DNA of 64,000 nucleotides from Tsuneonella mangrovi (GTDB lineage: Bacteria > Pseudomonadota > Alphaproteobacteria > Sphingomonadales > Sphingomonadaceae): positions 620,001 to 684,000 of the forward strand of contig NZ_CP022889.1 in assembly GCF_002269345.1 (NCBI RefSeq). The letters run 5' to 3'. Positions 38,124-56,213 of this stretch are shown one piece after another. The notes below the pieces were generated by a model. The model was given only the letters and a program-made list of their open reading frames with translations, did not search any database and was not told the DNA's origin. Position 1 is the stretch's first letter, and each line of letters starts with the position of its first letter. A program made the translations under genes and the position numbers.

Positions 38124-38407
38124 GCGCTTTCCTACTCTGCGCGAACCGTCCTAAACCCGCAAGCGATGGCTTGCGACCTACCGACGATATCGATCCGAAG
38201 CGACGGCGCGCCCGCCGAACTGCTCGCGACCCCGAAAGTCACACACCGGGCCGAAAAAGTCCTGCAATCCCCGTGTGCAACACGAACAAAGTCACACTTT
38301 TCTAATCCGGAAATAGCGTTCCGCTATCGCACGGCCTTTCGGGCTGGCCGCATCCGGTTTTCCTTGCCCGCCGCCCTCTGCCCGCTAGGATGCGGACAGA
38401 GGAGATT
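38124..38407. other. Intergenic stretch with a repeated 10-mer
   Basis: These 284 bases between the hydrolase gene and the band-7 gene hold no gene that I can support. The 10-mer aaagtcacac occurs twice, at 38235-38244 and 38288-38297. This may be chance or a binding-site pair; no known consensus fits. Confidence 0.3.
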
Positions 38408-39418
38408 ATGATGGGTTATTTTCTGATCCTGCTGCTGGTTGCGCTGCTCGTATTCCTGATGAGCAGCGTGCGCGTCGTCCGCCAGGGCTACGTCTATACG
38501 ATCGAGCGGTTCGGACGATTCACCAAGTCGGCCGATCCGGGCCTGCACATCATCACCCCGTTCATCGACCGGGTGGGTCACAAGATCAACATGATGGAGC
38601 AAGTGCTCGACATTCCGGGCCAGGAAATCATCACCAAGGACAACGCGATGGTCGGGGTCGACGCAGTGGTGTTCTTCCAGGTGCTCGAAGCGGGCAAGGC
38701 CGCTTACGAGGTATCGGGACTGCACCCGGCGATCATGGCGCTGACCACCACCAACCTGCGCACCGTGATGGGCAGCATGGATCTCGACGAAACGCTCTCC
38801 AAGCGTGACGAGATCAACGCCCGGCTGCTGTCCGTGGTCGATCACGCGACTTCGCCGTGGGGCGTAAAGATCACCCGCGTCGAGATCAAGGACATCCGCC
38901 CGCCGCTCGACATTTCCGAGGCGATGGCGCGGCAGATGAAGGCCGAGCGCCTGAAGCGCGCCGAGATCCTCGAGGCCGAGGGCGACCGGGCGAGCCGGAT
39001 CCTGCGCGCAGAGGGCGAGAAGCAGTCCGCGATCCTTTCCGCAGAGGGCAAGCGCGAAGCCGCCTTCCGCGACGCCGAAGCGCGCGAGCGTGCGGCGGAG
39101 GCCGAAGCGCGCGCGACGCAGATGGTGTCCGACGCGATCGCACAGAGCGGCAATGCGGCGATCAACTACTTCATCGCACAGGAATACACCAAGGCGGTCG
39201 GCAAGTTCGCGACCAGCCCGAATGCCAAGACGATCCTGTTCCCGGTCGAAGCGACTCAGCTGATCGGTTCGCTCGGCGGGATCGGCGAGCTGGTGCGCGA
39301 TGCGATCAAGCCGGGCGACGTTAATGTTACGTCGACCGTGCCGTCGGCATCCGGCACTCCTCTGCCCTCAGGGCGGTCGCGTACCTCGGTCCCGCATACC
39401 GGGCGCAGCAGCAGCTGA
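38408..39418 (+). CDS. SPFH/band-7 membrane protein (stomatin-like, paraslipin)
   Basis: The 336-residue protein has one N-terminal membrane helix (about 3-19), an SPFH domain (VRQGYVYTIERFGRF, PGLHIITPFIDRV, VLDIPGQEIITKDN) and a long coiled region (KAERLKRAEILEAEGDRASRILRAEGEKQSAILSAEGKREA). It matches the QmcA/stomatin-like group, which organises membrane microdomains and FtsH. It overlaps the NfeD gene by one base (TGATG), the classic stomatin-NfeD operon. ATG at 38411 is equally plausible as the start, given GGAG at 38401. Confidence 0.93.
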   Translation: MMGYFLILLLVALLVFLMSSVRVVRQGYVYTIERFGRFTKSADPGLHIITPFIDRVGHKINMMEQVLDIPGQEIITKDNAMVGVDAVVFFQVLEAGKAAYEVSGLHPAIMALTTTNLRTVMGSMDLDETLSKRDEINARLLSVVDHATSPWGVKITRVEIKDIRPPLDISEAMARQMKAERLKRAEILEAEGDRASRILRAEGEKQSAILSAEGKREAAFRDAEARERAAEAEARATQMVSDAIAQSGNAAINYFIAQEYTKAVGKFATSPNAKTILFPVEATQLIGSLGGIGELVRDAIKPGDVNVTSTVPSASGTPLPSGRSRTSVPHTGRSSS

Positions 39419-39906
39419 TGGACTGGCTGACCGACATCGATAGCTATTGGGCGTGGCTGGCCCTCGGGCTGCTGCTGGCGATCTTCGAGATGCTGGTGCC
39501 GGGCGTCTACCTGATCTGGCTGGCGCTCGCCGCGCTGGTCACAGGGGCGCTGACCTATGTGCTCGACTTTGGCGTCCCGCTGCAGATCGTGAACTTCGTG
39601 TTCCTGTCGTTGATCATCGTCTATTCTGCACGGCGAATAGTACGCGACAACCCGATCGAAAGCACCGATCCGTTCCTCAACAACCGGATGGGTCGGTTGG
39701 TCGGCCAGACCGGGACAGTCAGCCTCGCCATAACCAGTGGAACGGGCCGGGTCAGGCATGGTGACAGCGAGTGGAACGCGCGCGGGCCCGACCTCGATGC
39801 CGGCACGCGCATCAAGATCACCGGCTACGAAGGCGGGACATTGATCGTCGAGCCGCTGGCCCGGATCGAGGACCAGAGCGGCGAGGAAGGAACCGCACCC
39901 GCCTGA
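39418..39906 (+). CDS. NfeD family membrane protein
   Basis: The 162-residue protein has two to three N-terminal membrane helices (about 10-30, 34-50 and 57-72) and a C-terminal OB-fold NfeD soluble domain (about 90-150) with GRLVGQTGTVSLAITSGTGRVRHGDSEWNARGPDLDAGTRIKITGYEGGTLIVEP. It partners the upstream stomatin-like protein. This is the short form without an N-terminal serine protease domain. Confidence 0.95.
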   Translation: MDWLTDIDSYWAWLALGLLLAIFEMLVPGVYLIWLALAALVTGALTYVLDFGVPLQIVNFVFLSLIIVYSARRIVRDNPIESTDPFLNNRMGRLVGQTGTVSLAITSGTGRVRHGDSEWNARGPDLDAGTRIKITGYEGGTLIVEPLARIEDQSGEEGTAPA

Positions 39907-41249: not shown

Positions 41250-43193
41250 TTGGTCGACGTGTTCGTCTCGTATGCCCGCAGTTCGTCCGCACAGGCGCGT
41301 GCGGCGGCCGAGCGCCTGCGCGACAGCGGTTACACGGTGTGGATCGACGACGACCTGCCCGCCCACCGATCGTTCTCGACCGTCATCGAGGAAAACCTGA
41401 CCGCAGCTTCCGCTGTACTTGTGCTGTGGTCCGAGGATGCGCGCGCATCGCGGTGGGTGCCCGCCGAGGCGGACATGGCCTATAATGCCGACAAGCTCGT
41501 GCAAATGAGCCTTGACGGGGCGTTGCCCCCGCTGCCGTTCAACCGCGTGCACTGCGAAGTCGCGACCGGATGGCACGGCGAGCGCGATGCTCCTGCCTGG
41601 CGCAAGATCGACGCGAGCATCGCCGAGCTGGTAAAAGGCAAGCAGCATCGCGAGCTAGCGCCCGCACCCACGCGCCATGCGACCCGGCCCCTGCGAGAAA
41701 GAATGCTCGCGGTGCTGCCGTTCGACAACCTTTCGTCGGACGAGGAGCTGACCTTCTTTTGCGACGGCGTTTCGGAAGAAATCCAACGCTCGGTTGCTGA
41801 CGGCAGCGACCTCAAGGTAGTAGCCCGCTCCTCCAGCTTCCAGTTCCGCGGCGCAGACAAGGACACTGCCAAGGTGGCCGCCGCGCTCGGCGTCTCGCAC
41901 CTGCTCGACGGCTCGGTCCGCCGTGGCGGATCGAGAGTGCGGATCAGCGCCGAGCTGGTCGACTGCACAACCAGGAGCGCCATTTGGGGCGACCGCTTCG
42001 ACGGCGACCTAGAAGACGTATTCGAATTGCAGGACTCGATCGCACAGGCAGTGGCAAAGGCGCTCAAGGTCGCCCTCGCCCCGAAACCCAAGGAGCGATC
42101 GATGCCTCCGGATCTCTACGAAGAATTCATACGTGCTCGAGGCTGGATGGCCGAAGGCGATGCGATGTTCGACGATTCAGCAACGCGGGCGGTCCCACTG
42201 CTGGAAAAGGTCATCGCTGGAGCGCCCGACTTTGCTCCGGCTTGGGAACTGCTCGCCACCGCGCGCGCTTGGGAACTGCGGACCGGCCTCTACGAAGGGG
42301 AATACTCCATCGGGCGCGATAGCGTGATTCATGCGGCCCACACGGCTCTCGAGCTCGACCCGAGGCGCGGCGGGGCCTACGCTTCGCTTGCTAAGCTGGA
42401 GCCGTGGGGTTCTTATGAATCGCGCGAGAAGCTTCTATCGAAGGCACTTCAAGTGTCGCCGCGCGATCCGGCAATCCTGACCGACATGAGCGATTTCTAC
42501 TGGAGCGTGGGCCGATTTCGCGATGGGCTGGCGCTGGCCGAACAGGCTTGCGAACTCAACCCGCTCATGCCCTCGGCGCAGCTTCACGTATCACAGATGC
42601 GGCTCTATACCGGCGACTATGAGGGCGGGATCGAAATGAACCGCAGGATCAGGCGCCGGTGGCCCGACAACCCAGGCATCCTTCTTTCGTTGGTCAACAG
42701 TTCCAGCTTCCTCGATTTCTGGGATGCTTACGATGAGGCAGTCCCCTTCATCGAGAATTTCAGCGGCTGGCAGGTCAAGGACATGCGAGCAGCCAAGGCC
42801 TACGCCGATGCCAAACGCAGTATGGATCCGGACCTGATCGAGAAGCGCGTGGCGCGCTATGTCAAGCTGCTCGACGATACCGGCACGATGCCGCTCAACC
42901 TCATCCTTTCGATCGCTGCGCTAGGTAAGCTCGAGTTCGCGCTAGATCTCGCCGAGCGGGCCAACTACGATTACGTGTTCGATCGTGACGGAGCGCGCCC
43001 GAGCATCTACTATCCTGGCACGATCCTCGCGCGGTGGAGCGAACCTCTGCGTTCACCACGTATCACACGCCTGTGCCGCAGGCTTGGGTTGGCGGACTAT
43101 TGGGTCAACACAGATCAATGGCCCGATTGCGTCGAGTGGGTGCCTTACGATTTCAAGGAGGGAATCCGCGAAACACTGGCTGCCCCCGCCTAA
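41250..43193 (+). CDS. TIR-domain protein with TolB-like and TPR regions
   Basis: The 647-residue protein begins VDVFVSYARSSSAQARAAAERLRDSGYTVWIDDD, a clear TIR domain (about 1-130). In ASRWVPAEADMA, Trp69 and Glu73 fit the Trp-x3-Glu site of NAD-cleaving TIR domains. A TolB-like or FlgO-like domain follows (about 152-270, starting MLAVLPFDNLSSDEE), then TPR-like helices to the end. No membrane helix was seen. NAD cleavage or signalling is inferred. The start is TTG at 41250 after GGGGGTG. It is 129 bases after tRNA-Leu and convergent with an odd operon, sharing CTAA at the stop codons. Confidence 0.85.
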   Translation: MVDVFVSYARSSSAQARAAAERLRDSGYTVWIDDDLPAHRSFSTVIEENLTAASAVLVLWSEDARASRWVPAEADMAYNADKLVQMSLDGALPPLPFNRVHCEVATGWHGERDAPAWRKIDASIAELVKGKQHRELAPAPTRHATRPLRERMLAVLPFDNLSSDEELTFFCDGVSEEIQRSVADGSDLKVVARSSSFQFRGADKDTAKVAAALGVSHLLDGSVRRGGSRVRISAELVDCTTRSAIWGDRFDGDLEDVFELQDSIAQAVAKALKVALAPKPKERSMPPDLYEEFIRARGWMAEGDAMFDDSATRAVPLLEKVIAGAPDFAPAWELLATARAWELRTGLYEGEYSIGRDSVIHAAHTALELDPRRGGAYASLAKLEPWGSYESREKLLSKALQVSPRDPAILTDMSDFYWSVGRFRDGLALAEQACELNPLMPSAQLHVSQMRLYTGDYEGGIEMNRRIRRRWPDNPGILLSLVNSSSFLDFWDAYDEAVPFIENFSGWQVKDMRAAKAYADAKRSMDPDLIEKRVARYVKLLDDTGTMPLNLILSIAALGKLEFALDLAERANYDYVFDRDGARPSIYYPGTILARWSEPLRSPRITRLCRRLGLADYWVNTDQWPDCVEWVPYDFKEGIRETLAAPA

Positions 43194-44266
43194 TCGGCGT
43201 CCTTCGGACCGTAAGTATAGAGCGTGCGATCGACTTCGAATCGCGCATTCGAGGTGAATGACATCGCGAACTCGACAACAACCTTCGTCCGCGCCATGCT
43301 CCAGTCGGCAGGCAAGTCGTCGTCGGGCACGGGCGTGGGGATCGTGTGACCGTGCTCGTCCTTCGGACGGGGATCGGTGAGGCCGAACAACTTCACGAAT
43401 TGTTCCTGCATGGTGTCCGACCACATGAATGACAGCTCAACATCTTTGCCTGCATAGAACTGCGGCATCTTTGTAACAGTGTGACTTATCCGCGAAGCGA
43501 TTATCGCCCGATATGCAGCCGACTGCATGTCGAACACGTCCCGGAACTGCTTGAGAGTGTTGATCTCGATAAAGTGGGTTGGATCCGCGTCCTGCGCATC
43601 GGGTTGAATTTCGAAGAAAGGAACAATGCTGAGCAGAGCACCACTGAATGACCCAATTTGCCTGTTCGCGAGCATCAGCGAGGCCTTGTCGACCGGAGCG
43701 GCATTCTCCTTCATGCGAATGTGCATGACCGCTAGCTCGCGCGACTTGGACCTCGGGCTGAACTCGCGAAACCCTTGCGTTGAAAGGTCGATGTGGAGGT
43801 TGTCAGGCTCAAATCCTTCGTTAAGCGTGATGCGGCCAAGCTGCTTCTCGCTGCCCCAGATTTCGCGACTTGAGAACATTACCGTGCTACTGTCGTCGAA
43901 GTAGAACGGCTGGATCCACACGATCTTGTGGTCGCCTAGCAGGTTGTCCTTGTTCACTTCGTAGCGCTCAGCGGGAAACGACCAGAACACTTCCTTGTGC
44001 GCAAGGGTGTCCCATCCCTCTTTGCCGCTGTAGCCGCTCGAGAAATCGACGTGGTCGGCCACTGTGAGCATCCCGATACAGTCACCCGCCGTCGCCCGAT
44101 AGTAATACGGCGACCGATCGGGACCCGCCGAATTCAGATGGGTATCGAGGTACTCCTGCATGCAAAGCGGGTGCGCCTTGATGATGAAATTCCAGATGCG
44201 CGACCCGGTCGCGATCCAGGGGGGGATCAACTGCTGAGTGGTGAACGATTCGACGAATTCGGTCAT
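43190..44266 (-). CDS. Uncharacterised protein A, acetoacetate-decarboxylase-like (last gene of operon)
   Basis: I do not recognise this 358-residue protein with certainty. Segments HKIVWIQPFYFDDSSTVMFSSREIWGSEKQLG (about 113-144) resemble the acetoacetate-decarboxylase fold, where a GRExxGxPK strand carries the Schiff-base lysine; here the equivalent is SREIWGSEK with Lys141. It is a distant paralogue of the upstream protein, sharing the ordered features KEVFWSFP / REVFVSIP and the lysine loop. There is no signal peptide. It overlaps the upstream gene as ATGA, and its stop overlaps that of the convergent TIR gene. Enzymatic role is unknown. Confidence 0.6.
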   Translation of the reverse strand: MTEFVESFTTQQLIPPWIATGSRIWNFIIKAHPLCMQEYLDTHLNSAGPDRSPYYYRATAGDCIGMLTVADHVDFSSGYSGKEGWDTLAHKEVFWSFPAERYEVNKDNLLGDHKIVWIQPFYFDDSSTVMFSSREIWGSEKQLGRITLNEGFEPDNLHIDLSTQGFREFSPRSKSRELAVMHIRMKENAAPVDKASLMLANRQIGSFSGALLSIVPFFEIQPDAQDADPTHFIEINTLKQFRDVFDMQSAAYRAIIASRISHTVTKMPQFYAGKDVELSFMWSDTMQEQFVKLFGLTDPRPKDEHGHTIPTPVPDDDLPADWSMARTKVVVEFAMSFTSNARFEVDRTLYTYGPKDAD

Positions 44267-45414
44267 CGCCTCGCTCCTTTCCCGAACAATCCCTTGATCG
44301 GACGGAACCAGCGCGCGGTCAGGTCGCTCATCCCGGGCCGTGCGACAATTCCATCTCCGGCATCGATCGGAAATTCGTGGATGACCCGCATCAGGTCGTA
44401 GTCGACGTCGGCAGTGAACCGGAAGGCCGCTGTTGGGCTGGTCGAGATACATCCCGGTGGGCGTTCCTCTTTCAAATCGAGAAACACCCGCAGGATGTCG
44501 CGGAAGCTTCCGAAATCGTGGAACTTTATCAATACATCCATTTCATCATACAATCGCAGGTCGCGGACGTTCGTATAGTGGGAACGACAAGTGACCAGTG
44601 CCTGGTAGACGGCTTTTTCCGGATGCGCGGCGTCGCGGTATTGCTTGAGGCCTACCGTGCGCATCGAGGTGGGGATGAGACCAGCCGAAATGTAATCGAC
44701 GAAATTAGATAGATCGCCCATGCGTTCGATCGCGGCGGCGACCGCCGGACTGTCGAGCAACGTTGCGAGCGACAGCTCCGGCCTCGCGCCGAGCCTGAAT
44801 GTCGGCAGAAGCGGGCCGGTCGTGACTTCGAGAAACGGCAGCATCTCCTGATACTCGCCAGGCACATCGGTCTTCCAGCCCGGCATCATGACCGAACCAC
44901 TGAAGCTGTCGGGGAATTCGAATTCGCCGATGTCGATATCCGCCAATAGCTTGCCCAGCCCGAGCATTTCCCGCCCGCAAACGCACGACCACGGCTTGTC
45001 GACAACGATGAACGGAAGGATGCAGTTGGGCTCGCTTTTAGTGAAGAGGCCCGAGGTGCCATTGCCGTAGCGCATCACCGGAATCGAAACGAAGACCTCG
45101 CGCTGACTGGTAGTCCCGCGATTGGGATACGGAACTTCACCAGTATCCTCAGGCAGGCGGTTCGAGCTGACCATCTCGGGATAGTCGAGGAACATCAGCA
45201 TCAGGTACGGCCAGCTTGACAGCGGACGGTATTCGAAGCCGCGCTCTTCGCGCGAGCCGAGGTTGAGGAACTTGTCGCAGTATGCTTGCACCGCCGGCAA
45301 CTGCGCCTTCCACAGGAAGGAATTCACCGTCACCTTGGGGAAATGGTAGGGCGGCGGCACATCCTGGCTGGCGGCCGATTGGACATAGAGCCGCGAATGC
45401 CAATGATCGCTCAT
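44263..45414 (-). CDS. Uncharacterised protein B, acetoacetate-decarboxylase-like
   Basis: A 383-residue protein related by layout to the next gene. The CILPFIVVDKPWSCVCGREMLGLGKLLADIDI segment (131-162) fits the acetoacetate-decarboxylase superfamily pattern with Lys155 at the Schiff-base position, though the usual Pro before the Lys is Gly. The C-terminal part (about 230-383) has a VDYISAGLIPTSMRTVGLKQYRDA stretch of unknown role. It overlaps both neighbours by ATGA. No signal peptide or membrane helix is visible. The family reading is tentative. Confidence 0.6.
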   Translation of the reverse strand: MSDHWHSRLYVQSAASQDVPPPYHFPKVTVNSFLWKAQLPAVQAYCDKFLNLGSREERGFEYRPLSSWPYLMLMFLDYPEMVSSNRLPEDTGEVPYPNRGTTSQREVFVSIPVMRYGNGTSGLFTKSEPNCILPFIVVDKPWSCVCGREMLGLGKLLADIDIGEFEFPDSFSGSVMMPGWKTDVPGEYQEMLPFLEVTTGPLLPTFRLGARPELSLATLLDSPAVAAAIERMGDLSNFVDYISAGLIPTSMRTVGLKQYRDAAHPEKAVYQALVTCRSHYTNVRDLRLYDEMDVLIKFHDFGSFRDILRVFLDLKEERPPGCISTSPTAAFRFTADVDYDLMRVIHEFPIDAGDGIVARPGMSDLTARWFRPIKGLFGKGARR

Positions 45415-46478
45415 ACCGTTGCCTCCCTGGGAGTGGCAACGAACTCGGCTGCGCCGGCTTGGACGATGAAATCGGATCCGAACACCAGTGACGGGGTCTG
45501 GAAACCCGGTTGAACCTGTCCATCGCGGATCCGGTGCAAGGCTTCGGCCGAGGTCAGCGCGCTTGCCGAATAGCCGTCCAGTACGTGCATGCGGATCACA
45601 CGGGGCCGGCGCCAGCGATCGTGCGCTTCGACCACCAAGGTATAGCCGGTGCCTTCGGGTAAGCCGCCGGGAGGCTCCTCCGGCCAGATCTTCGATGTCG
45701 CGGCCCCAAGGCTGCGCCACGGCCCCGCCCCGGTAACCCGCGCAGTGAGCCCGGCCATGCGATAGCTCGAGCGGTGCCACCATGGCTGCTCGGTAAAAGT
45801 CTCGATGCTCCGGACCCCGGTCGAAAGCTCGCAGGTCACGACATCTGCCCAGGTCATTGCAGTCGCTTCGCTCAACCGGCCTGCGAAGTCGAACGCGCGC
45901 ACCAGGCTGCCGGCCGGAACCGGCACCAGCTCCCCGTCCCGCCTCACCACAAGATCGGCATCGAACACCCGCGCCGCGCTCGCCACGCTACCAGCCGAAA
46001 CGGCGTGCAGGCACGAAAATCCGATGTAGAATTTGACCGTGTCGGGCCAGGTCTCGACCGCGCGCTTGAGCAGGCAATCGCTCGCCGCAATCGTCAACCC
46101 CATACCGGGAAGCAGCATCACCCCCGCTTCACGTGCTGCCTCGTCGTGCGCGAGAAGCTGCCCGAACACCGGCCATTCCCCGGCGAGGTCGAGATAATGG
46201 CACCCCGCCTCTATGCAGGCATCGGCCATCCGTATTGCGGTATCGAGATACGGACCCGCAGCGTTGAGCACGACCGAGGCGCCGTCGAGCGCGTCGACGA
46301 TCGTGGCGTGATCCGACAGGTCGAATGCACACCATGGGAGATGGAACCTGTCCGCCACTTCCGCGACCCGCTCGGCATCGCGCCCCGCGATGACCAACGG
46401 CATCGTACCGGCGATCTCCTCGAGGATCTTCTGCGCGGTGAAACCCGTCGCGCCATAAAGGAGCACATGCCCGGTCAT
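45411..46478 (-). CDS. Saccharopine-dehydrogenase-like NAD(P)-dependent reductase
   Basis: A 355-residue protein beginning with a Rossmann fold (TGHVLLYGATGFTAQKILEEIA), then MPLVIAGRDAERVAEVADRF, SVVLNAAGPYLDTAIRMADACIEAGCHYLDLAGEW and MLLPGMGLTIAASDCLLKRA. This is the pattern of the saccharopine-dehydrogenase-like and trans-acting enoyl-reductase group, which reduces double bonds in lipid or polyketide chains in some bacteria. In this operon reduction of a prenyl chain or its head group is plausible. It overlaps both neighbours by ATGA. The start at 46478 was chosen over 46541, which would overlap the next gene more. Confidence 0.85.
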   Translation of the reverse strand: MTGHVLLYGATGFTAQKILEEIAGTMPLVIAGRDAERVAEVADRFHLPWCAFDLSDHATIVDALDGASVVLNAAGPYLDTAIRMADACIEAGCHYLDLAGEWPVFGQLLAHDEAAREAGVMLLPGMGLTIAASDCLLKRAVETWPDTVKFYIGFSCLHAVSAGSVASAARVFDADLVVRRDGELVPVPAGSLVRAFDFAGRLSEATAMTWADVVTCELSTGVRSIETFTEQPWWHRSSYRMAGLTARVTGAGPWRSLGAATSKIWPEEPPGGLPEGTGYTLVVEAHDRWRRPRVIRMHVLDGYSASALTSAEALHRIRDGQVQPGFQTPSLVFGSDFIVQAGAAEFVATPREATV

Positions 46479-47527
46479 TTGCGGTCGAAAATCCAGCGGA
46501 CAAGGCCGAGCAGGAAATCTCGGTCCTCGCCTTCGGGGCATTCGCCGTAGGCTTGGTCAAATTCCTCCAGGGCGCATCCGGCCATCGCCGCCGCTACCCG
46601 CTTGCCATAGGCGATCGAGCCCTTTTCGTGCATCAATTCGGCCAGCCATTGCCCATCGGCCCGGCCGCGCTCGCCGCGATCGCAGGCAAGGAAGGCGTCG
46701 ATCCGCTTGCGCTCGGCTGCACTCGCTGCCTCGCGGACATGGATCAGCATCAGCGTTCGCTTGCCTTCGAACAGATCGCCCCCGCGCTCCTTGCCGTAGC
46801 CCGGATCGGCGGTCAGGTTGCGCAAGTCGTCCTCGATCTGGAACGCGATGCCAAGGAAATGGCCGAACCCCATCAACCGGGCGGGGTCGACGCGTCCGCG
46901 CGAGCCGACAATCGCCCCGAGTTGCGCAGGCCAGATCATCCCCATCCACGCGGTCTTCTTCAGCGCCATGCGCAAGTAATCGGCGGTCGTCAGCCCGGTG
47001 ACGTTGTTGTCGCGCCACCCCAGCTCGAGCGCCTGGCCTTCGGCGGTCTGGCGCGCCATCTCGATCGTCGCATCGATGACTTGGCGGGCGACCTCGGGCC
47101 CGCAAGGGCGAACCGCGTCGAGCAATGGGCGAAAGGCGGTGAACATCAGCGCGTCACCGGCATTGATCGCCAAGGGCACGCCGTGCAGCGCGTGGAGCGT
47201 CGGGCGGCCCCGCCGCTCTTCGCTGCCATCCTGGATATCGTCGTGGATCAACAGCGCGTTGTGCAACAGCTCGACCGCAGCAGCACAGCGCACAACCGAT
47301 TGCAGCTCACCGCCGAACAGGCGCGCGTTGGCGATGCAGATCGCCGGACGCATCATCTTGCCGCCACGCCCGGGATAATCGGCCAGAAGATCGTCGAGGA
47401 ACGGAGCAACCGAAGGGTTGGTGAGGTAGCGCGTCAGTTCCCCGCGGGTGGCGCTGGCGTATCGGTCGAGCAGCCCGGCTGGGAGGCATCCTGCGGCGCT
47501 TTCCGCGCTTGTCGCCCCCTCCTCCAT
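46475..47527 (-). CDS. Trans-polyprenyl diphosphate synthase family protein
   Basis: The 350-residue protein joins isopentenyl diphosphate to allylic primers in its family. The first aspartate-rich motif is DDIQD (96-100), flanked by ALLIHDDIQDGSEERRG; the second is DDLRN (233-237) in GIAFQIEDDLRNLTAD, with its last position Asn where Asp is usual. GKERGGDLFEGKRTLM follows. The product chain length cannot be fixed by eye. It is a plausible chain-maker for the operon, with a desaturase, a reductase and ADC-like proteins. ATG at 47527 was chosen; GTG at 47530 is adjacent. Confidence 0.9.
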   Translation of the reverse strand: MEEGATSAESAAGCLPAGLLDRYASATRGELTRYLTNPSVAPFLDDLLADYPGRGGKMMRPAICIANARLFGGELQSVVRCAAAVELLHNALLIHDDIQDGSEERRGRPTLHALHGVPLAINAGDALMFTAFRPLLDAVRPCGPEVARQVIDATIEMARQTAEGQALELGWRDNNVTGLTTADYLRMALKKTAWMGMIWPAQLGAIVGSRGRVDPARLMGFGHFLGIAFQIEDDLRNLTADPGYGKERGGDLFEGKRTLMLIHVREAASAAERKRIDAFLACDRGERGRADGQWLAELMHEKGSIAYGKRVAAAMAGCALEEFDQAYGECPEGEDRDFLLGLVRWIFDRK

Positions 47528-47533
47528 CACCGC

Positions 47534-48490
47534 CTAGTCCTTGACCTGCACGACGATGACACCGAGCGGGATGTCCTGGCTGAGCGCCGTGACCATTCCT
47601 GAATAGACCCCCGCCGGCTGGTTTGGCGGCACATCGATCGTTACCAGGAGCCCTCCCGCTGAAACGTCCGCCTCGAATTTGATCCCGGCTGCGTCGATCG
47701 CGGGATTGTTTCCTTCTCTCGGAACGAGCGACGTCGAGGTAATTTCCCACACCCCGGTCGGGTTCGTTGGACGATCGAGCTCCTTGACCAGCGCGGCAGC
47801 CTTCTTGCCTGAAAACTGTATCGTGAGCGGAAGCTTTCGGTGATCCTGCCGGTGGTGTTCGCGGTGTGGTTGGTGCACCTTGACGCCGTGCTGAGCGGAA
47901 CCGTTTGTCTTGCCCTTGGCCTTGCCCTTGACGGGCTGGATATCGCGAAATCCCGGCACGGCGGAAGCGGTTTCGCCGGGAGGCGGTGGGCCGCTCGCTG
48001 CGGCAAACTGTGCCAGCAGTTGCTCGCAGATGTCGAAAGTCGTGGTGCTCAACTGCCGCGTGAGGTCGAGCAGCCGGTGAGCCATCGCCTCGACATCGTA
48101 GGGCACCTTGCGAAAACTGTAGTTCCCCTGGCGGAACAGCTCCGCCGCCCGCCGCCCCTGGGCGATCGTTTCCGACAGCACATCATAACCCGACCGGACC
48201 GCTTCGGCGACGGCCTCGTCGATATGGAGCGCTTCGCCAGAATTGGCAGTTTTGGCTTTCGCGTGCCAGCGATCGTGGTGGTGGCCATCGTCGGGACCGA
48301 ATTTCGGTCCTTGCTTCGCAGCCTCCGGTTCCGCGTGGCCCGGGTGCGGCGCGGCCGCTGCTATGTTTGCACCACTTCGGTCGGGGCGTTGACGAGGGGT
48401 GGGCTCGCGCTTGATCCGTTCCTTCTTCGACTTTGACGTTACGCGCTTCTTGCCGCGCTTGCCCGAAGCAGCATCATCAGGGGTGGTCAT
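47534..48490 (-). CDS. Uncharacterised phasin-like protein with C-terminal beta domain
   Basis: I do not know a family for the whole 318-residue protein. Three parts are visible: a basic, disordered N-terminus (about 1-90) with a His-rich DDGHHHDRWHAK run, a helical region (about 90-165, DEAVAEAVRSGYDVLSETIAQGRRAAELFRQG...) that resembles phasins, and, after a second His-rich linker (HQPHREHHRQDHRK), a beta-rich domain (about 220-318) ending PPNQPAGVYSGMVTALSQDIPLGVIVVQV. Phasins coat hydrophobic granules. A scaffold or surface role for the operon's enzymes is inferred. It overlaps the upstream flavoprotein gene by 14 bases. Confidence 0.65.
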   Translation of the reverse strand: MTTPDDAASGKRGKKRVTSKSKKERIKREPTPRQRPDRSGANIAAAAPHPGHAEPEAAKQGPKFGPDDGHHHDRWHAKAKTANSGEALHIDEAVAEAVRSGYDVLSETIAQGRRAAELFRQGNYSFRKVPYDVEAMAHRLLDLTRQLSTTTFDICEQLLAQFAAASGPPPPGETASAVPGFRDIQPVKGKAKGKTNGSAQHGVKVHQPHREHHRQDHRKLPLTIQFSGKKAAALVKELDRPTNPTGVWEITSTSLVPREGNNPAIDAAGIKFEADVSAGGLLVTIDVPPNQPAGVYSGMVTALSQDIPLGVIVVQVKD

Positions 48491-50594
48491 AGGCGGTGAT
48501 GTCCTCCAACCTGGGGAGCCCGCTCAGCGCATGCGCGGCGAGCAAGCCCGACATTACAGCTCCTTCGACGCAACCCGAATGAAAACCGCTATCGGTCCAG
48601 TCACCCGCGAGAGTCAAATTGTCATAGGTTATGTCGAGCGGTGATATCCGGTACCGCCAGCTTCCAGGCGTATGAATAACGTAGCGATCGGAAGGGTTTA
48701 CGTTTGCACGCCAATATTGCGAGGCAAACCGCGCCGGCCCTTTGGACTTACGCCCCTTCTCCGCCGGTTTGAGAATTTCCCAACGAAATTCGCCGCTTGA
48801 GTCGAATGCGCGGGGCCAGATTGCGCGAACCGGACCCTGCAGGAAACCTTCGGCGCTGGCCTTCACTTCAGCCGCGCGCCGCGCCGGATACCCGCTGTCG
48901 TCGTCCGCTGGCGGTTCGGGCGGATCGCGCAGCGCGGCGCAGAAATAGACCGAGGTCGCAGGCGGGTCCTTCCACCCTTCTTCCGGCACGACGTGCGCCA
49001 TGTCGCACCACGTGTCGAACGGCTTGGCAAAAGCACCGGTAATGTAGGTCGGGCCCGGCCAGCCAAGCGTTTCCAGATCTTCGGTCAGCCAGACCTGGAA
49101 TGCCTGCGAAGCAACAGTGGTGACATTGTCGCACATCGCCTTCCAGCGAGGATCGTGGGCCACGATTTCGCTGGCGACATAGGGCACCGCGGCGACCCCG
49201 ACCGTCAGGGCGACGAAGTCAAAGTCCTCGCCGACGTCGAGCGTCTTCTCCCCTGCCCGCCGCCGATCCCAGTGCGATTCGAGGTTCCACCCTTCCTTCG
49301 CGATCCGGTCGCCCTCGCGCAGTTGTTCGAGATCGGGTTCGGACGGCCAGCACGGCTTGCCTTGAACCTGCACTAGCGGATCGTATTCCCCGCCCCCCTT
49401 AACCGTCGCCTGCACGTCGAAGGTGAGTGTCGCGACATGGCCCTTGCCCCGACCCAGCCCCATGTTGGTTAGGCGGTGGAAGAATTCGAACTTTACTCCA
49501 CGCGCTTTCATCGCGGTGTAGAGCGGCGCGAACACAACGTCTCCCATTCCCGCGCGCATTCGCCACATGAACGCGCCGCGATAGCCGAAGAACGTGCGCA
49601 AAGTGCCGCGCAGCCCTTGCCCCGCCGATAGCGACGGGCGATCGGGATCGCCGTTCACGTAACCCATCGAAAGATCGTAGAGCCCGCGCAGGAATGGCGA
49701 TTGCAGCGCACGGTCGGATGCGCCGTTGATCTTCATCCATTCGCGGCATTCGTAGTCGTCGATCGCGTCGAGGCCATCGGGGTCGGACATGATGCCATAG
49801 CGCATAAGGCCCGTAATCGTAGCCAGCGTAAGATCGGCCACTTCCCACATGAAGCGGTTGGGATCGTCGGCAATCCAGCGATCCTCGATCCATTGGCGGA
49901 GCTGGCCGAGTAGACCGTCAGCCGATCGCAACAGCCCGTCGGCCGTCTCGGGCGTGACCGAACGGATGAGTGCCGCCAGCACGCCCAGCCCCTCGGCCAA
50001 TGCCGCAGCGCTCGCAAAAGTGCCGAGCCTGGCGAGGTAAGCGAGCCGCGAGACGATGTCGCCGTCGGGCGGACGATCGAACCAGGTCGCCGGATTATGG
50101 CCATCGACCTGGGTATCGAGGATCAGCGAGCGGAACAGTTCGAACGCGCGTGCCATGTAGAACGCCATCGTAAACGGTTCGTCCGGCGGGCGCGGATCGC
50201 CCGGCAACCCGGCCCGGGCAGGCATTCTGACAAACCATTTCTGGAAGCCGCCGTTCTCGCTGGCGGAACACAGCGCAATATCGTTCTCCGGCGTCCACGC
50301 ATCGCGCCAATCGCCGTAAACATGCCCCTGCCCCGCCGCCTCGAGCTCGGCATGGCATTCGCGCATCATCCGGAAGGCGTTGTCGTAAAACCCGAGCCAG
50401 ATATGCAGCCCGTGTTCCTCGATCCGTCCGCTCGCGCCGCGACCAGAAGCGCCCTTGCCTCCCAGCCGCCAGCCTTCCTGATAGACAGTGACTTCGTAGC
50501 GCCCGTTATGCTGTGGCTTCGACAGCTCCCACGCCAGCGCCATTGCCGCACACCCGCCGCCAATCACGGCAACCCGGATCGGCGCGTCGCTCAA
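48477..50594 (-). CDS. Carotene-desaturase/HpnE-like FAD-dependent oxidoreductase
   Basis: The 705-residue protein, first in the operon, opens with the FAD-binding VAVIGGGCAAMALAWELSK (Rossmann loop GGGCAA at 12-17) and GWRLGGKGASGRG ... EEHGLHIWLGFYDNAFRMMRE, the pattern of zeta-carotene desaturases, hydroxysqualene dehydroxylase (HpnE) and related amine-oxidase-fold enzymes. The C-terminus has LTLAGDWTDSGFHSGCVEGAVMSGLLAAHAL, the FAD-closing motif. It is longer than most family members (about 450-500). An isoprenoid substrate is likely. The start is TTG at 50594. Confidence 0.87.
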   Translation of the reverse strand: MSDAPIRVAVIGGGCAAMALAWELSKPQHNGRYEVTVYQEGWRLGGKGASGRGASGRIEEHGLHIWLGFYDNAFRMMRECHAELEAAGQGHVYGDWRDAWTPENDIALCSASENGGFQKWFVRMPARAGLPGDPRPPDEPFTMAFYMARAFELFRSLILDTQVDGHNPATWFDRPPDGDIVSRLAYLARLGTFASAAALAEGLGVLAALIRSVTPETADGLLRSADGLLGQLRQWIEDRWIADDPNRFMWEVADLTLATITGLMRYGIMSDPDGLDAIDDYECREWMKINGASDRALQSPFLRGLYDLSMGYVNGDPDRPSLSAGQGLRGTLRTFFGYRGAFMWRMRAGMGDVVFAPLYTAMKARGVKFEFFHRLTNMGLGRGKGHVATLTFDVQATVKGGGEYDPLVQVQGKPCWPSEPDLEQLREGDRIAKEGWNLESHWDRRRAGEKTLDVGEDFDFVALTVGVAAVPYVASEIVAHDPRWKAMCDNVTTVASQAFQVWLTEDLETLGWPGPTYITGAFAKPFDTWCDMAHVVPEEGWKDPPATSVYFCAALRDPPEPPADDDSGYPARRAAEVKASAEGFLQGPVRAIWPRAFDSSGEFRWEILKPAEKGRKSKGPARFASQYWRANVNPSDRYVIHTPGSWRYRISPLDITYDNLTLAGDWTDSGFHSGCVEGAVMSGLLAAHALSGLPRLEDITAYDHP

Positions 50595-50809: not shown

Positions 50810-53800
50810 TCAGGCGGGCTTCTTCCGGAGAGCGGAGCGACCGTCTGTCAGGCCCTGCACCATCGCCGGCAGGAACAGCAACACCAGCGGAACGGCGGCG
50901 ACCAGCCCGAAGATGATCGCAGTCGCAAGCGGCTTTTGCAGCCCCGCGCCCCGGCTGATCCCCAGCGCGAGCGGGGATAGCGTGAGTATCGCGATCAGCG
51001 CGCTCATCAGGATCGGGCGTAGGCGATTGGTGGCGGCGGCATGAAGCGCACCAATCGAGACAGGCTCGTCGCGGTCGATCTCTGCGAAGAAGAACACGAT
51101 GAGTTCGGTCACCATCCCGATCACCATTGTCAGCCCCATCAGCGCCGAGATGTCGAGCTCGATGCCGGTGATCCACAAGCCGCACAGCACCGCCCCGGCG
51201 CTGAGCAGCACCGTGACGATCGCCGAGATGGTCCACGTCAGCCGTTCGAACAGCAGCGTCAGCAGCAGCGCGGCCAGCAGCAGGGCCGATCCGAACACGA
51301 TCGTCATGTCGGTAAAGCTCTTCTGCTGTTCGGCATAGAGACCGCCGTATTCGACCCGGATCGACGGTGGGAGGTTGAGCCCCGCGACAGTGCTCTTGAC
51401 CCGTTTCATCGCAGTGCCGAGGCTGATCCCGTTGAGGCGCGCGGTAACATCGATGAACGGCGCGAGGTTCTCGCGGGTCAGCTGCTTCTGGCCGGCTTCG
51501 ATCGACACAGTGGCAATCTGGCTCACCCGCACGCTGTGCCCGTCGGGCGCAACCAGCGGCATGGTCGCGATCTGGCTGGCACGTTCGCGCAAGTCGCGCG
51601 GGCTGCGCAGCCGGATGTCGATCATCTGTTCGCCGACCCGCACCTGCGTCGCCGGGCTGCCATCGACCATCGCTTCGAGTTGGCTGGCGATCGCTTGCGG
51701 GTCGAGGCCCTGCTGCGCGGCCGCGCCGGGATCGACCTTCACCGAAATCGCATCACCCGCAACCCTGAGCCCGTCGACGACTTCGGCAACCCCGTTGATC
51801 TGGCCAAGCGCCTTTCCGACTTTCCTTGCCGCACCTTCGAGCGCCTTGGGATCGTTGCCGAACAGCTTGACTTCGATCGGTTGCGGCACGGCGGTGAGAT
51901 CGCCGATCAGGTCTTCCATCAGCTGCGCGGTATCGATCTGCAAACCGGGCACCTGATTTTCGGCCTTGGTGCGGATTTCGTCCATCACATCCCAGATCGG
52001 GCGCCGAGAACCGCCCTTGAGCCGGATGAAGTAATCGCCTTCGTCGGCCTCGGTCAGACCGCCACCGAGCTGCAACCCGGTACGGCGCGAATAGCTGGCG
52101 ACTTCGGGGGTGGAGGTAATGATCTTTTCCAGCTGGCGCAACTGCCGGTCGGTATCGGCCAGGGCAGCGCCGGGTTGCGCCTTGTAGTCGAGCACAAACC
52201 CACCCTCGTCCATCCTGGGCATAAATCCTGACGGCACGTGGGTAAGCGAAAAATACCCCCCGAGCCCCAGCAGCACCGCAACCACCAGCGCGAACAGTGC
52301 TGGCCGGACGAAAACCCGCTTGGCCAGCCGCCCATAGGCGTGCTGGAGCCGGTCGATCATCCCGCTCGCCTTCTCGGCAGCTTCGGCGTCTTCGTCGCGC
52401 AGCCAGTAGGCAGCGATCAGCGGTATCGCGAAGCGGGCATAGAGCAGCGAAATCGTAAGCGCGGCAACGATCGTGATCGCCAGCGCCTTGAAAAACCCGC
52501 CTGTCACGCCGCTGATGAACGCCAACGGCACGAACACCACGATCGTCGCGCCGGTCGATCCGACCAACGGCTTGCCCATTTCCGCCGCAGCCTCGAGCAG
52601 CGAAGGCGTATCGGTGCTCTTGCCCTCCTGCATCCGCCGCATGATATGCTCGAGCATCACCACGGCGTCGTCGACAATGAGGCCGACGGCAGCCGCCATG
52701 CCGCCCAGCGTCATCATGTCGAAGTGCATGCCCATCGCGTAGAGGATGAGGCAGGTCGCCGCGAGCACGCCCGGAAGCATCGCTGCGGTGATCGCCATCA
52801 GCCGCGCCGAGCGCAGGAACATGAACAGCACCAGGCCCGCTAGCAGCGCCCCGATCAGGATCGCATCGCGCACCGCTTTGGCTGCGCCCGCGACCAACTC
52901 CGACTGATCATAGAACGGTGTCACCTTGACGCTGCTGGGCAAGGCGAGCGCTTTGATCTGCGCCTGCACGTCGTTGACCACTTGCACGGTGTTGCCGCGC
53001 AGCGATTGGCGCACGTTCACCAGTACCGCGTTCTGCCCGTTCGAATTGACCAGCGTATAGTTGGGTGCCGACGAAGGGATGACCTGCCCGATACTACCGA
53101 GCGTGACCACGCTACCCGTCCCGCCGGCGGTCTTGACCGCGATCGATGCGATATCCTGCGGGGTCGACAGCTTGCTCTGGACCAGCACGAGATACAGGCG
53201 ATGGCGATCGGCTATCTTGCCCGCACCGATCACGACATTGGCGTTCGCCAGAGCGCTCGCGACATCGGTCGGGGAAACGCCCATTGCGGCCATCCGCGAA
53301 GGGTCGAGACGAACTTCGAATTCGCGCGGCGATCCGCCCAGCACATCGACCGCCGCGACCCCTTTGACCGAAGTCAGCGCCGGGCGGATGCGCAGCTCGG
53401 CGATCTGGCGCAGGTCTTCCTGGTTGAGCGTCGGAGACGTGAGCGCGAGGCCGTAAACCGGGAAGATCGTCGGATCCATCCGCCGCACATCGAACTGGAT
53501 GCCTGGCGGCAGCGCGCTTTGCATCGTCGCCAGTTCGCCTTGCGTAGCGAGCTGCGCGGCAACCATGTCGTGCCCCCAGTCGAAATCGAGCGCGAGTTCG
53601 GCCGAGCCGCGGCTGGTGGTCGAGCGGATCCGGGTGACCCCGGGGATCGAGCGCAACGCCAACTCGAGCGGGCGGGTGATCTGCGCTTCCATCCGTGCCG
53701 GGTCGCGCTCGCCCGCATCGACTGCAACGACAACGCGCGGATAATCGATGTGCGGGAACAGGCTGACCGGCAGCTTGGTCGCCGCCATCAACCCGCCCAG

Positions 53801-53857
53801 CGTCAGCAGCAAGATCGCCAGCCAGATGGTGCGTGCGTGATGGGCAAGCGAGCGCAT
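50810..53857 (-). CDS. RND-family efflux permease
   Basis: The 1015-residue protein has 12 membrane helices and two large periplasmic loops, as in AcrB/CzcA-type proton antiporters. Marks include LPVSLFPHIDYPRVVV, FLRSARLMAITAAMLPGVLAATCLILYAMGMHFDMMTLGGMAAAVGLIVDDAVVMLEHI (helix 4 with the Asp-Asp relay) and ALMGLTMVIGMVTELIVFFFAEIDRDEP. Sequence alone does not say whether it exports metals or organic compounds. It overlaps the membrane-fusion gene as TAATG and is the last gene of a regulator-linked operon. Confidence 0.95.
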   Translation of the reverse strand: MRSLAHHARTIWLAILLLTLGGLMAATKLPVSLFPHIDYPRVVVAVDAGERDPARMEAQITRPLELALRSIPGVTRIRSTTSRGSAELALDFDWGHDMVAAQLATQGELATMQSALPPGIQFDVRRMDPTIFPVYGLALTSPTLNQEDLRQIAELRIRPALTSVKGVAAVDVLGGSPREFEVRLDPSRMAAMGVSPTDVASALANANVVIGAGKIADRHRLYLVLVQSKLSTPQDIASIAVKTAGGTGSVVTLGSIGQVIPSSAPNYTLVNSNGQNAVLVNVRQSLRGNTVQVVNDVQAQIKALALPSSVKVTPFYDQSELVAGAAKAVRDAILIGALLAGLVLFMFLRSARLMAITAAMLPGVLAATCLILYAMGMHFDMMTLGGMAAAVGLIVDDAVVMLEHIMRRMQEGKSTDTPSLLEAAAEMGKPLVGSTGATIVVFVPLAFISGVTGGFFKALAITIVAALTISLLYARFAIPLIAAYWLRDEDAEAAEKASGMIDRLQHAYGRLAKRVFVRPALFALVVAVLLGLGGYFSLTHVPSGFMPRMDEGGFVLDYKAQPGAALADTDRQLRQLEKIITSTPEVASYSRRTGLQLGGGLTEADEGDYFIRLKGGSRRPIWDVMDEIRTKAENQVPGLQIDTAQLMEDLIGDLTAVPQPIEVKLFGNDPKALEGAARKVGKALGQINGVAEVVDGLRVAGDAISVKVDPGAAAQQGLDPQAIASQLEAMVDGSPATQVRVGEQMIDIRLRSPRDLRERASQIATMPLVAPDGHSVRVSQIATVSIEAGQKQLTRENLAPFIDVTARLNGISLGTAMKRVKSTVAGLNLPPSIRVEYGGLYAEQQKSFTDMTIVFGSALLLAALLLTLLFERLTWTISAIVTVLLSAGAVLCGLWITGIELDISALMGLTMVIGMVTELIVFFFAEIDRDEPVSIGALHAAATNRLRPILMSALIAILTLSPLALGISRGAGLQKPLATAIIFGLVAAVPLVLLFLPAMVQGLTDGRSALRKKPA

Positions 53858-54879
53858 TACTTGGTGCGCACCTTCATGCCATCCTCGAGCGCGGTCCCGC
53901 CCTGGGTCACGACCTTGTCGCCCGCTGCGACGCCGTTGGCTATCGCCACGATCTTGCCGTCGGTCGCTCCGATGCTCACGTCCCTGCGGTGGGCAACCCC
54001 CTTGCTTACGACGAACACATAGGGCTGCCCCGCGTCGTCGAGCAGCGCCGAGTAAGGAACGGTTACGGTATCACCCGACATCTGCACGGTGACCGTGCCC
54101 TTCAGCGGCTGGCCAGCGCCCACTTGGAAACGCGCCGGGACCGTTACGTAGATCGATGCAAGCCGGGTCTGCGGATCGGCGGAAGGATCGACCGAAACGA
54201 TCGGGACGGTCGCACCTGGCCCTCCGCCCGGCGCATCGAGCTGCATCCCGGCCCCCCGAGAGAGGTGCGCGACGAGGCTCGGGTCGATCCCGAAGCTCGC
54301 CTGCAGCGCGCCGCTGCGACTGATCGTGACGATGGGAGTACCGGGGCTCACGAGGTTACCCGGCGCGCTGTCGACCGACCGGACAAAGCCCGGCCCCGGA
54401 GCGCGAATGGCAAGCTGGCCTTGCTGGACCGACAGTGCAGAAAGGGCGGCGCTGGCAGACTGGGCGGCGGTGCGGGCGCTTTCGACATCGGCGTCGCTCA
54501 TCAGGCCATCGGCCCGCAGCCGCTGCGCGCGGGCGTAGGCGGCCTTTGCAGTCTGCGCTTCGCTGGCGAGGCGAGCGCTGTCGGCGCGGGTTGCCGGGCT
54601 GGGAGACAGCGCCACGACCAACTGGCCGCGCGAGACGGGCGAACCGACACTGGCGGCAATTCGGCTCACCACCGCTTCGACCGGTGCTGACAGCGTGAAC
54701 TGGGTGTCCGCATTCTGTTCGACCATCCCGTAAAGCGTCTGCGTCGAGGCCACGCTGCCGGTCTGCGCGGTCGCCAGCGAGACGAGCGCGGACGGCACAG
54801 CGCTGGTGTCCCCGCCCGATGAACCCGAACAGGCGGCCAGCGACAGGCTTGCTGCCAAAACCAACCAGCGAAATCTCAT
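53857..54879 (-). CDS. RND efflux periplasmic adaptor (membrane fusion protein)
   Basis: The 340-residue protein starts with a lipoprotein signal (LAASLSLAACSGS) and has a biotinyl-lipoyl-like hairpin (VEAVVSRIAASVGSPVSRGQLVVALS ... GQLAIRAPGPGFVRSVDSAPGNLVSPGTPIVTI), a coiled alpha hairpin between (about 95-155) and beta-barrel domains. It connects the RND pump to the TolC-type channel. The start at 54879 overlaps the upstream tolC-like stop as ATGA; an ATG nine bases upstream also lies close to a GGGAGG. Confidence 0.94.
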   Translation of the reverse strand: MRFRWLVLAASLSLAACSGSSGGDTSAVPSALVSLATAQTGSVASTQTLYGMVEQNADTQFTLSAPVEAVVSRIAASVGSPVSRGQLVVALSPSPATRADSARLASEAQTAKAAYARAQRLRADGLMSDADVESARTAAQSASAALSALSVQQGQLAIRAPGPGFVRSVDSAPGNLVSPGTPIVTISRSGALQASFGIDPSLVAHLSRGAGMQLDAPGGGPGATVPIVSVDPSADPQTRLASIYVTVPARFQVGAGQPLKGTVTVQMSGDTVTVPYSALLDDAGQPYVFVVSKGVAHRRDVSIGATDGKIVAIANGVAAGDKVVTQGGTALEDGMKVRTK

Positions 54880-56213
54880 TGCGGCCATGCCTCCCGCGGG
54901 GTTCCCGTCAACAATTCGAGCGCGATCATCTGTTCATCGTAATCCTGTTGGGCTTGGGCGAGCTGGATCTGTCGGTCGCGCAGCGCCTGCTCGGCGCTTT
55001 CTGCGGCTTCGAGCGACAGGTCGCCGCGATCGGCCGCCGTGCGCGAAGCCGCCGCGAAGTGCTCGATCCGATCGATCCCGGCCAGCGCGTCGGCCTTGCG
55101 CTGGAGCGCTGTGCGAACCCCGGCCTCGGCAGCGGCAATATCCGCCCGCGTCTGGAACAGGCGGGCCTGGTATTCGGCCTTGAGCGCCGCGCGGGTCGCG
55201 CGTTCGACGGCAATCGTGCCGCGATTGCGGTTCCACAGCGGCAAGGTGAAATCGACCGCCGGACCGAGCAGCAAGTTCCCGGCTGAATCCCGCTGGGAGT
55301 TGAGCGTCAGGCCGAGATTGGGAAACTGGTCGAGCACGGCCTTGTGAACCGCGGCTTCCTGCGCAGCGTAGCCTTCGCGCAATGCGGCCAGGTCGGTCCG
55401 GTTCTTCTCGGCGAGCCCGAACAGCGCGGAGGCTGGAGGCGGCGAGGCAATGTCCGGAATCGGGGCGAGCGCCAGCGGCTGATCAGGCCTCAGGCCCAGC
55501 AGGCGACGCAGATCGCCTTGCGCGGTAACGAGGCTTTGTGCAGCGGTGTTGTAGGTGTCGTCGGCGCTGAATGCAGCGACGCGTGCCGCCTGGAGCCGAT
55601 CCCCGGCAATATCGCCCCGCGCCGAGGCGCGTTCGTTGCGATCGAGCAGCGAGCGAGCGGAATCGCGCGACTTCTTTGCCAGCGAAACGATCTGCTGGAG
55701 TTGCTCGATCCTCACAGCCTGGATCTTCGCTTGCCCGGCAGTCTGCCATTCGGCCCATGCCAGGTCGAGGCGGACCTGCTCGCCCTGCGCGACTGCCCCT
55801 TGCCGGCGCACCGCGCGGGTGCGCAGCGCATTGAGGTCGAACCCCAGCGCGCCGGACACATCCAGCATCGTATCGGGCCCGCTCGCCACTTTGCTAGCAC
55901 CAATCGAGAAGGTTGGATCGGGCAGCAGGCCGGCGGCAAACACCTGGGCTTGTGCGACCCCGCGTCTGGCGCGCAGCGCGGCAAGGTCGGGGTTGTTGGC
56001 TACTGCCAGCGTGGCGATCGCATCGAGGCCGAGCGGCTTGGAAAGGTCGATCGATACCGGCTTGAGCCATGGCCGTTCGACCGCGCTCGCGCTTTGCTCG
56101 AGCACCGACGCCACCGGCTTCTCCAGCGCGTTACTGTCGCTTGCCAACGGGACCGGCACATACGTGGCGCACCCCGAGAGCATCAGCATGGCGGCCACAA
56201 TCGCTATGCGCAT
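54876..56213 (-). CDS. TolC-family outer membrane efflux lipoprotein
   Basis: The 445-residue protein has a lipoprotein signal (AAMLMLSGCAT, Cys near 15) and two outer-membrane-factor repeats: long helices such as RAVRRQGAVAQGEQVRLDLAWAEWQTAGQAKIQAVRIEQLQQIVSLAKKS and ALREGYAAQEAAVHKAVLDQFPNLGLTLNSQRDSAGNLLLGPAVDFTLPLWNRNRGTI. The family provides the outer-membrane exit duct. It overlaps the histidine kinase by 10 bases and the adaptor gene by 4. Confidence 0.94.
   Translation of the reverse strand: MRIAIVAAMLMLSGCATYVPVPLASDSNALEKPVASVLEQSASAVERPWLKPVSIDLSKPLGLDAIATLAVANNPDLAALRARRGVAQAQVFAAGLLPDPTFSIGASKVASGPDTMLDVSGALGFDLNALRTRAVRRQGAVAQGEQVRLDLAWAEWQTAGQAKIQAVRIEQLQQIVSLAKKSRDSARSLLDRNERASARGDIAGDRLQAARVAAFSADDTYNTAAQSLVTAQGDLRRLLGLRPDQPLALAPIPDIASPPPASALFGLAEKNRTDLAALREGYAAQEAAVHKAVLDQFPNLGLTLNSQRDSAGNLLLGPAVDFTLPLWNRNRGTIAVERATRAALKAEYQARLFQTRADIAAAEAGVRTALQRKADALAGIDRIEHFAAASRTAADRGDLSLEAAESAEQALRDRQIQLAQAQQDYDEQMIALELLTGTPREAWPQ

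Follow-up and report, generated by a model that had tools for sequence, protein, structure and literature searches.

What appears to be an undescribed, conserved locus for an isoprenoid lipid, complete with a signalling gene of its own, lies in the genome of Tsuneonella mangrovi (GCF_002269345.1; one contig of 2.70 Mb, NZ_CP022889.1). The window analysed is the whole 64,000-nucleotide stretch from position 620001 to 684000 of this contig; coordinates given below are positions within it, and gene ends include stop codons. Six minus-strand genes at 43190-50594 are transcribed in the order flavoprotein (FAD), phasin-like protein (PHA), prenyl synthase (PPS), saccharopine-dehydrogenase-like reductase (SDH) and two acetoacetate-decarboxylase-like proteins (ADC1 and ADC2). 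On balance we favour the reading that this operon, translationally coupled and seemingly horizontally transferred, serves to make and modify an isoprenoid lipid and is controlled by a signalling protein whose gene lies beside it at the locus.

The operon and its convergent signalling gene

In transcribed order, the junctions between the six genes are -14, +6, -4, -4 and -4, the last three being ATGA overlaps; the coordinates and coupling are those given in a preliminary description of the same DNA. Contigs were scanned with the flavoprotein, which yielded 34 loci, and all six proteins were then mapped onto these loci. The -14 overlap of FAD and PHA was kept in 17/17 six-gene loci and the PPS/SDH junction was -4 or -1 in 22/22 loci, and the junctions are therefore not accidental. 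When the window genes were compared with those of a relative locus (L099), dN/dS values of 0.06-0.16 revealed purifying selection on all six genes and on the signalling gene. The flavoprotein gene begins at a TTG codon, with AGGGG 8 nt upstream; the PPS gene begins at ATG, with a GTG at 47530 as a possible alternative. A promoter and terminator scan detected no sigma-70-like promoter on the operon strand, and its terminator candidates did not stand convincingly above shuffled sequence. The members of the locus are as follows.

48477-50594, minus strand: FAD-dependent oxidoreductase of 705 amino acids, flavin amine-oxidase superfamily (Pfam Amino_oxidase and NAD_binding_8)
47534-48490, minus strand: phasin-like protein of 318 amino acids (alignment and AlphaFold model; no Pfam or NCBIfam family)
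46475-47527, minus strand: trans-prenyl diphosphate synthase, resembling geranylgeranyl diphosphate (GGPP) synthase (polyprenyl_synt, 4.4e-54)
45411-46478, minus strand: NAD(P)-dependent reductase, saccharopine-dehydrogenase-like family (Sacchrp_dh_NADP, 9.9e-13; next after the prenyl synthase at 22 loci)
44263-45414, minus strand: ADC1, acetoacetate-decarboxylase fold with Schiff-base lysine K155 and Glu106 (AlphaFold, Foldseek and VIA-align)
43190-44266, minus strand: ADC2, paralogous ADC-like protein with lysine K141 present (lysine in 5/20 ADC2-type domains; joined to the end of ADC1 in methanotrophs and Myxococcota)
41250-43193, plus strand: TIR - TolB-like - TPR signalling protein (TIR_2 and TPR matches; locus-regulator profile match)

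The last of these genes is convergent with the operon and overlaps the end of ADC2 by 4 bases; its TolB-like part was recognised by eye. It matched, at 987 bits, a profile derived from regulators found in the same position at other Sphingomonadales loci, and the N-terminal domain of these orthologs is either TIR (L019, L028, L029, L037) or wHTH/BTAD (L021, L024, L038). In cyanobacteria, Acetobacteraceae, methanotrophs and Myxococcota the position is taken by a class III cyclase-AAA_16-TPR protein, beside which a Crp-family regulator is encoded in cyanobacteria and some others. In 5/5 genomes from four lineages, either no protein elsewhere in the genome matched the family of this cyclase-AAA-TPR protein or none came close to the copy at the locus, which makes it a dedicated partner of the locus. 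The gene at 41250-43193 is a conserved seventh member of the locus, and its product is probably a dedicated regulator or sensor of the operon; the preliminary description had recognised the six genes, which are real, but had missed this one.

Immediately upstream of the operon and in the same direction, 50810-56213 (minus strand) carries genes identified by eye as an RND efflux permease, a membrane-fusion protein and an outer-membrane factor. These genes were placed outside the unit, because the other loci show no conserved family of this kind. On the plus strand, 38390-39906 holds a gene pair that appears by eye, from its translation, to encode SPFH/stomatin-like and NfeD-like proteins.

Conservation, distribution and relatives of the unit

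FAD and PPS occur together in 33 loci, window included, and FAD-PHA-PPS forms the core block. The full order FAD-PHA-PPS-SDH-ADC1-ADC2 was found in Erythrobacteraceae, in Novosphingobium-type Sphingomonadaceae and in one metagenome-assembled genome of the Caulobacteraceae; Cyanobium-type cyanobacteria and Polymorphobacter carry FAD-PHA-PPS-SDH-ADC, and Acetobacteraceae carry FAD-PHA-PPS-ADC. In methanotrophs and Myxococcota, FAD-PHA-PPS is accompanied by two ADC domains, mostly fused in a single frame. Across 348 genomes of the order Sphingomonadales, the operon-type flavoprotein (identity of at least 55%) was present in seven, with distant paralogs in about nine more. The phasin-like profile gave strong matches in exactly the same seven genomes, and in the same places, together with two marginal matches elsewhere; the flavoprotein was absent from ten other species of the genus of T. 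mangrovi. The locus is thus a unit that is conserved, though it occurs sporadically, across several bacterial phyla, and the gene order kept across loci, along with the co-occurrence of PHA and FAD, excludes the chance neighbourhood that the preliminary description had named as grounds for abandoning its proposal.

In the flavoprotein tree the 33 operon-type loci form a clade with a support of 100, in which the nearest relatives of the window copy are those of Erythrobacteraceae. The FAD and PPS trees are broadly concordant, with cyanobacterial copies beside or inside alphaproteobacterial ones. Given this concordance, the distribution and the co-occurrence of PHA with FAD, the unit seems to move as a block, and seems to have spread by horizontal transfer.

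Beyond this clade, a sister group of flavoproteins (24 tree rows) is adjoined by an ADC gene, a signalling protein or both, in Azospirillum, Burkholderia, Caballeronia, Catenovulum, Rhodobacterales, Rufibacter, Erythrobacteraceae and several cyanobacterial genomes of 6-8 Mb. Enzymes of isoprenoid metabolism adjoin several related modules: a member of the squalene/phytoene synthase family (SQS_PSY) sits between ADC and FAD in L086, a CruF-like Caroten_synth gene precedes FAD in L090 and L091, a squalene-hopene cyclase gene precedes FAD-ADC in Minicystis (L049), and an RPE65 gene comes after the full operon in Polymorphobacter (L051). Because related FAD-ADC modules adjoin SQS/PSY, squalene-hopene cyclase or CruF-like genes, isoprenoid chemistry is supported; these neighbours, each from a single lineage, all point in the same direction. 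The idea of a prenyl-lipid pathway, put forward as a candidate in the preliminary description, is strengthened by these modules and by the conserved neighbourhood; a small acid for the ADC pair and a granule or membrane surface would be more conjectural parts of the same idea.

The same relatives yielded three further observations. Minicystis rosea (L049, L097, L098), with a 16-Mb genome, has several FAD modules, including the squalene-hopene cyclase-FAD-ADC module and one full operon. In Erythrobacteraceae, TIR-AAA-TPR proteins, which mix both regulator types, stand beside a second FAD-ADC module (L094:2482-5736, L095, L096). At three loci (L040:8877-9944, L041:8921-9982 and L097:10693-11673) the ADC genes are replaced or accompanied by a gene for a glycine-zipper protein that contains an ADC-like 'SDS..GYQKRP' stretch; when this protein was aligned with ADC by hhalign the register looked right, at an E-value of 0.36 that is not significant, and the protein is possibly a membrane-inserted third member of the ADC fold.

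The encoded proteins

In a Pfam scan the two ADC proteins scored 24.9 and 20.0 bits against PF06314, under its cut-off of 29.8, and neither a PDB sequence search with ADC1 or its profile nor a search of a viral collection with ADC1 returned a match. The AlphaFold model of ADC1 (pTM 0.82) nonetheless confirmed, at the level of predicted structure, an acetoacetate-decarboxylase fold: Foldseek E-values reached 2e-13, with ADC-family entries in all of the top 19 rows, and VIA-align superposed the model on ADC structures with Z of 19-21.5 (2.6 A over 233 residues at Z 21.5), against 5.3 for the next unrelated fold. Glu106 and Lys155 of ADC1 (numbered as raw minus one, to allow for an extra leading codon) pair in a profile alignment with Glu76 and Lys115 of the Clostridium acetobutylicum enzyme, whose letters were checked against 3bh2; K155, at the Schiff-base lysine position, is carried by the signature GREMLGLGK. 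This lysine is present in 42/42 ADC1-type domains, whereas it is kept in 5/20 ADC2-type domains and lost in 15/20; the window copy of ADC2 retains it as K141. Lys116 of acetoacetate decarboxylase, next to the Schiff-base lysine, tunes pKa; the corresponding residue is Leu in ADC1 and Gln in ADC2, so neither has this second lysine. The fusion of ADC1 and ADC2 in methanotrophs and Myxococcota suggests that the two work as one complex, and to judge from the alignments the pair looks like a Schiff-base catalytic subunit with an often-inactive partner. Thus, of the decarboxylase-like pair in the preliminary description, ADC1 stands, by its fold and lysine, but the two do not appear to be equal decarboxylases.

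ADC1 shares its fold and the GREx5K lysine with a superfamily that includes C. acetobutylicum ADC, the S. bingchenggensis aldolase-dehydratase, MppR and Swit_4259. It differs from these in that the operon proteins are about 100 residues longer and form a paralogous pair, the partner being frequently lysine-less, in an isoprenoid gene context. An ADC-family protein has been reported in the lipid-droplet proteome of Anabaena (PMC12923008); no sequence link between it and the operon proteins was found, and it serves as an analogy only.

The flavoprotein belongs to the same superfamily as HpnE, phytoene desaturase and zeta-carotene desaturase, with both end motifs, and these were its best-scoring named models; a profile search of the PDB returned phytoene desaturase 5mog as the sole match. 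Its scores were nevertheless far under the equivalog cut-offs (62 bits against 283 for HpnE, and 31-32 bits against 569-622 for the two desaturases), it has 705 residues rather than about 430-500, and its operon encodes neither HpnC/HpnD nor a phytoene synthase.

The prenyl synthase, whose best PDB match is the Thermus GGPP synthase 1wmw, has DDxxD motifs like that enzyme and the IdsA-type trans-prenyl synthases. It differs in its second motif (DDLRN, or DDLLN, following a first motif of DDIQD), and it fell below every cut-off in a scan of NCBIfam models, among them that for the encapsulin family 2 cargo prenyl transferase (NF041169; 168 bits against 450). As to an encapsulin shell gene, no conserved family other than those of the genes listed here was seen at the loci, although no search with shell models was made. 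An Ala or Gly five positions before the first DDxxD, as in long-chain enzymes, is present in nearly all orthologs, which fits a product of C20 or longer. The genome has three PF00348 genes, and the other two were typed as farnesyl diphosphate synthase (IspA) and octaprenyl diphosphate synthase (IspB).

The phasin-like protein comprises a disordered N-terminus with a conserved RxxRPxPxRxxPIR motif, an amphipathic helical hairpin (85-165) and a C-terminal Ig-like beta domain (219-316) modelled by AlphaFold at a pLDDT of >93. It is a small protein with a helical hairpin, like the phasins; it differs from them in its Ig-like domain and its N-terminal motif and in having no phasin-family match in Pfam or NCBIfam, and its label is one of predicted shape only. 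Structure prediction, which the preliminary description had advised, thus produced an ADC fold for ADC1 and, for the phasin-like protein, a hairpin with a generic Ig-like domain (VIA-align, Z at most 5.6) that gave no functional lead, the helical part being barely probed by the fold search. Among the earlier family calls, the Amino_oxidase/HpnE-like, polyprenyl_synt and Sacchrp_dh_NADP assignments are clear.

Alternative explanations and a proposed pathway

A Pfam scan of 43190-50594 detected no crtB, crtI or crtY, and the operon includes neither hpnC/hpnD nor a squalene-hopene cyclase gene. The canonical carotenoid genes crtB-LOG-crtI lie at about 2.38 Mb, away from the operon, and the sole SQS_PSY gene of the genome above the cut-off adjoins crtI. 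The operon shares an isoprenoid-directed flavoprotein with the crtB-crtI-crtY and hpnCDE-shc clusters but not the synthases or cyclases that define them, and identity with a known carotenoid or hopanoid cluster was rejected for this locus. The literature yielded no description of the gene set, subscription journals not being covered; the preliminary description, too, could match no described pathway to it.

Instead, the operon could be an accessory to the ordinary carotenoid pathway, PPS being the CrtE of the genome and the other proteins tailoring or storing the usual carotenoids. The typing of the other two prenyl synthases as IspA and IspB agrees with this, as do the CruF-like and RPE65 genes beside some relatives, and in Qipengyuania crtE is reported to lie apart from crtB-crtI-crtY (PMC9241875). 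Against it stand the remote position of crtB-LOG-crtI, the missing flavoprotein in ten congeneric species and the presence of the same operon, in different contexts, in methanotrophs and Myxococcota, and we consider it unlikely. We find it somewhat more improbable still that the module is catabolic, with FAD and the ADC enzymes degrading imported isoprenoids or related hydrocarbons: FadL-type outer-membrane transporters adjoin the module in L035 (PF03349), L036 and Azospirillum (L055), and the ADC family includes aldolase-dehydratase type enzymes, but the prenyl synthase gene, an anabolic one, ranks with the partners that the full operon conserves best, and the loci share no conserved gene family for a CoA ligase or for beta-oxidation.

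The locus might also serve stress response or defence, with the TIR/STAND-like protein as effector and the enzymes producing the signal it responds to; its patchy distribution would fit, as would the encoded TIR, class III cyclase and AAA-TPR domains. This deserves little credence: the transcription-activator-type wHTH/BTAD domain of Novosphingobium-type loci speaks for regulation, Thoeris models match weakly, and the signalling domain varies between loci that conserve the enzymes. A polyhydroxyalkanoate-granule accessory system around a phasin, to which the hairpin shape and two PhaC synthases encoded in the genome might point, is the least credible, given PhaC genes far from the operon, no phasin family match, a conserved Ig-like domain and a genome distribution that tracks the operon exactly.

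Returning to a regulated pathway for an isoprenoid lipid, we infer its chemistry, step order, product and localisation from the protein families. PPS would make an all-trans prenyl diphosphate of C20 or longer, which the flavoprotein would desaturate or oxidise in the manner of carotene desaturases and HpnE. ADC1, aided by ADC2, would form a Schiff base with a carbonyl of the product or of a small co-substrate, leading to decarboxylation, an aldol reaction or dehydration, and the saccharopine-dehydrogenase-like protein would reduce C=C or C=O. The phasin-like protein may keep the enzymes or the product at a lipid surface, and the TIR-TPR protein (cyclase-AAA-TPR elsewhere) may sense a condition and switch the pathway.

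Several points weigh against this pathway. The full operon encodes no terpene cyclase, squalene/phytoene synthase or prenyltransferase, so the step from prenyl diphosphate to the flavoprotein substrate is left unexplained. The chain length made by PPS is not fixed by its sequence features, and because the genome has no separate CrtE the enzyme could also feed ordinary carotenoids. The isoprenoid enzymes adjoining minimal modules are single cases of one lineage each, no ADC is recognisable near L040 and L041, and the placement of the phasin-like protein at a lipid surface is putative.

A broader proposal is offered tentatively, as a real possibility: the locus may represent an undescribed class of isoprenoid-lipid pathway, spread horizontally among Alphaproteobacteria, Gammaproteobacteria, Cyanobacteria and Myxococcota. 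In it an ADC-fold Schiff-base enzyme and its partner paralog would act on a prenyl-derived substrate, a phasin-like scaffold would organise the pathway at a lipid surface, control would fall to an exchangeable TIR, cyclase or wHTH-TPR sensor, and a triad of FAD, ADC and sensor would be the core from which a wider family descends. On the favoured reading itself, the locus points to an isoprenoid lipid common to marine Erythrobacteraceae, picocyanobacteria, methanotrophs and myxobacteria, and brings a fold familiar from small keto acids, that of acetoacetate decarboxylase, into isoprenoid metabolism. It also links biosynthetic genes to a dedicated signalling protein, of TIR or cyclase-AAA-TPR type, with a trigger that becomes testable.

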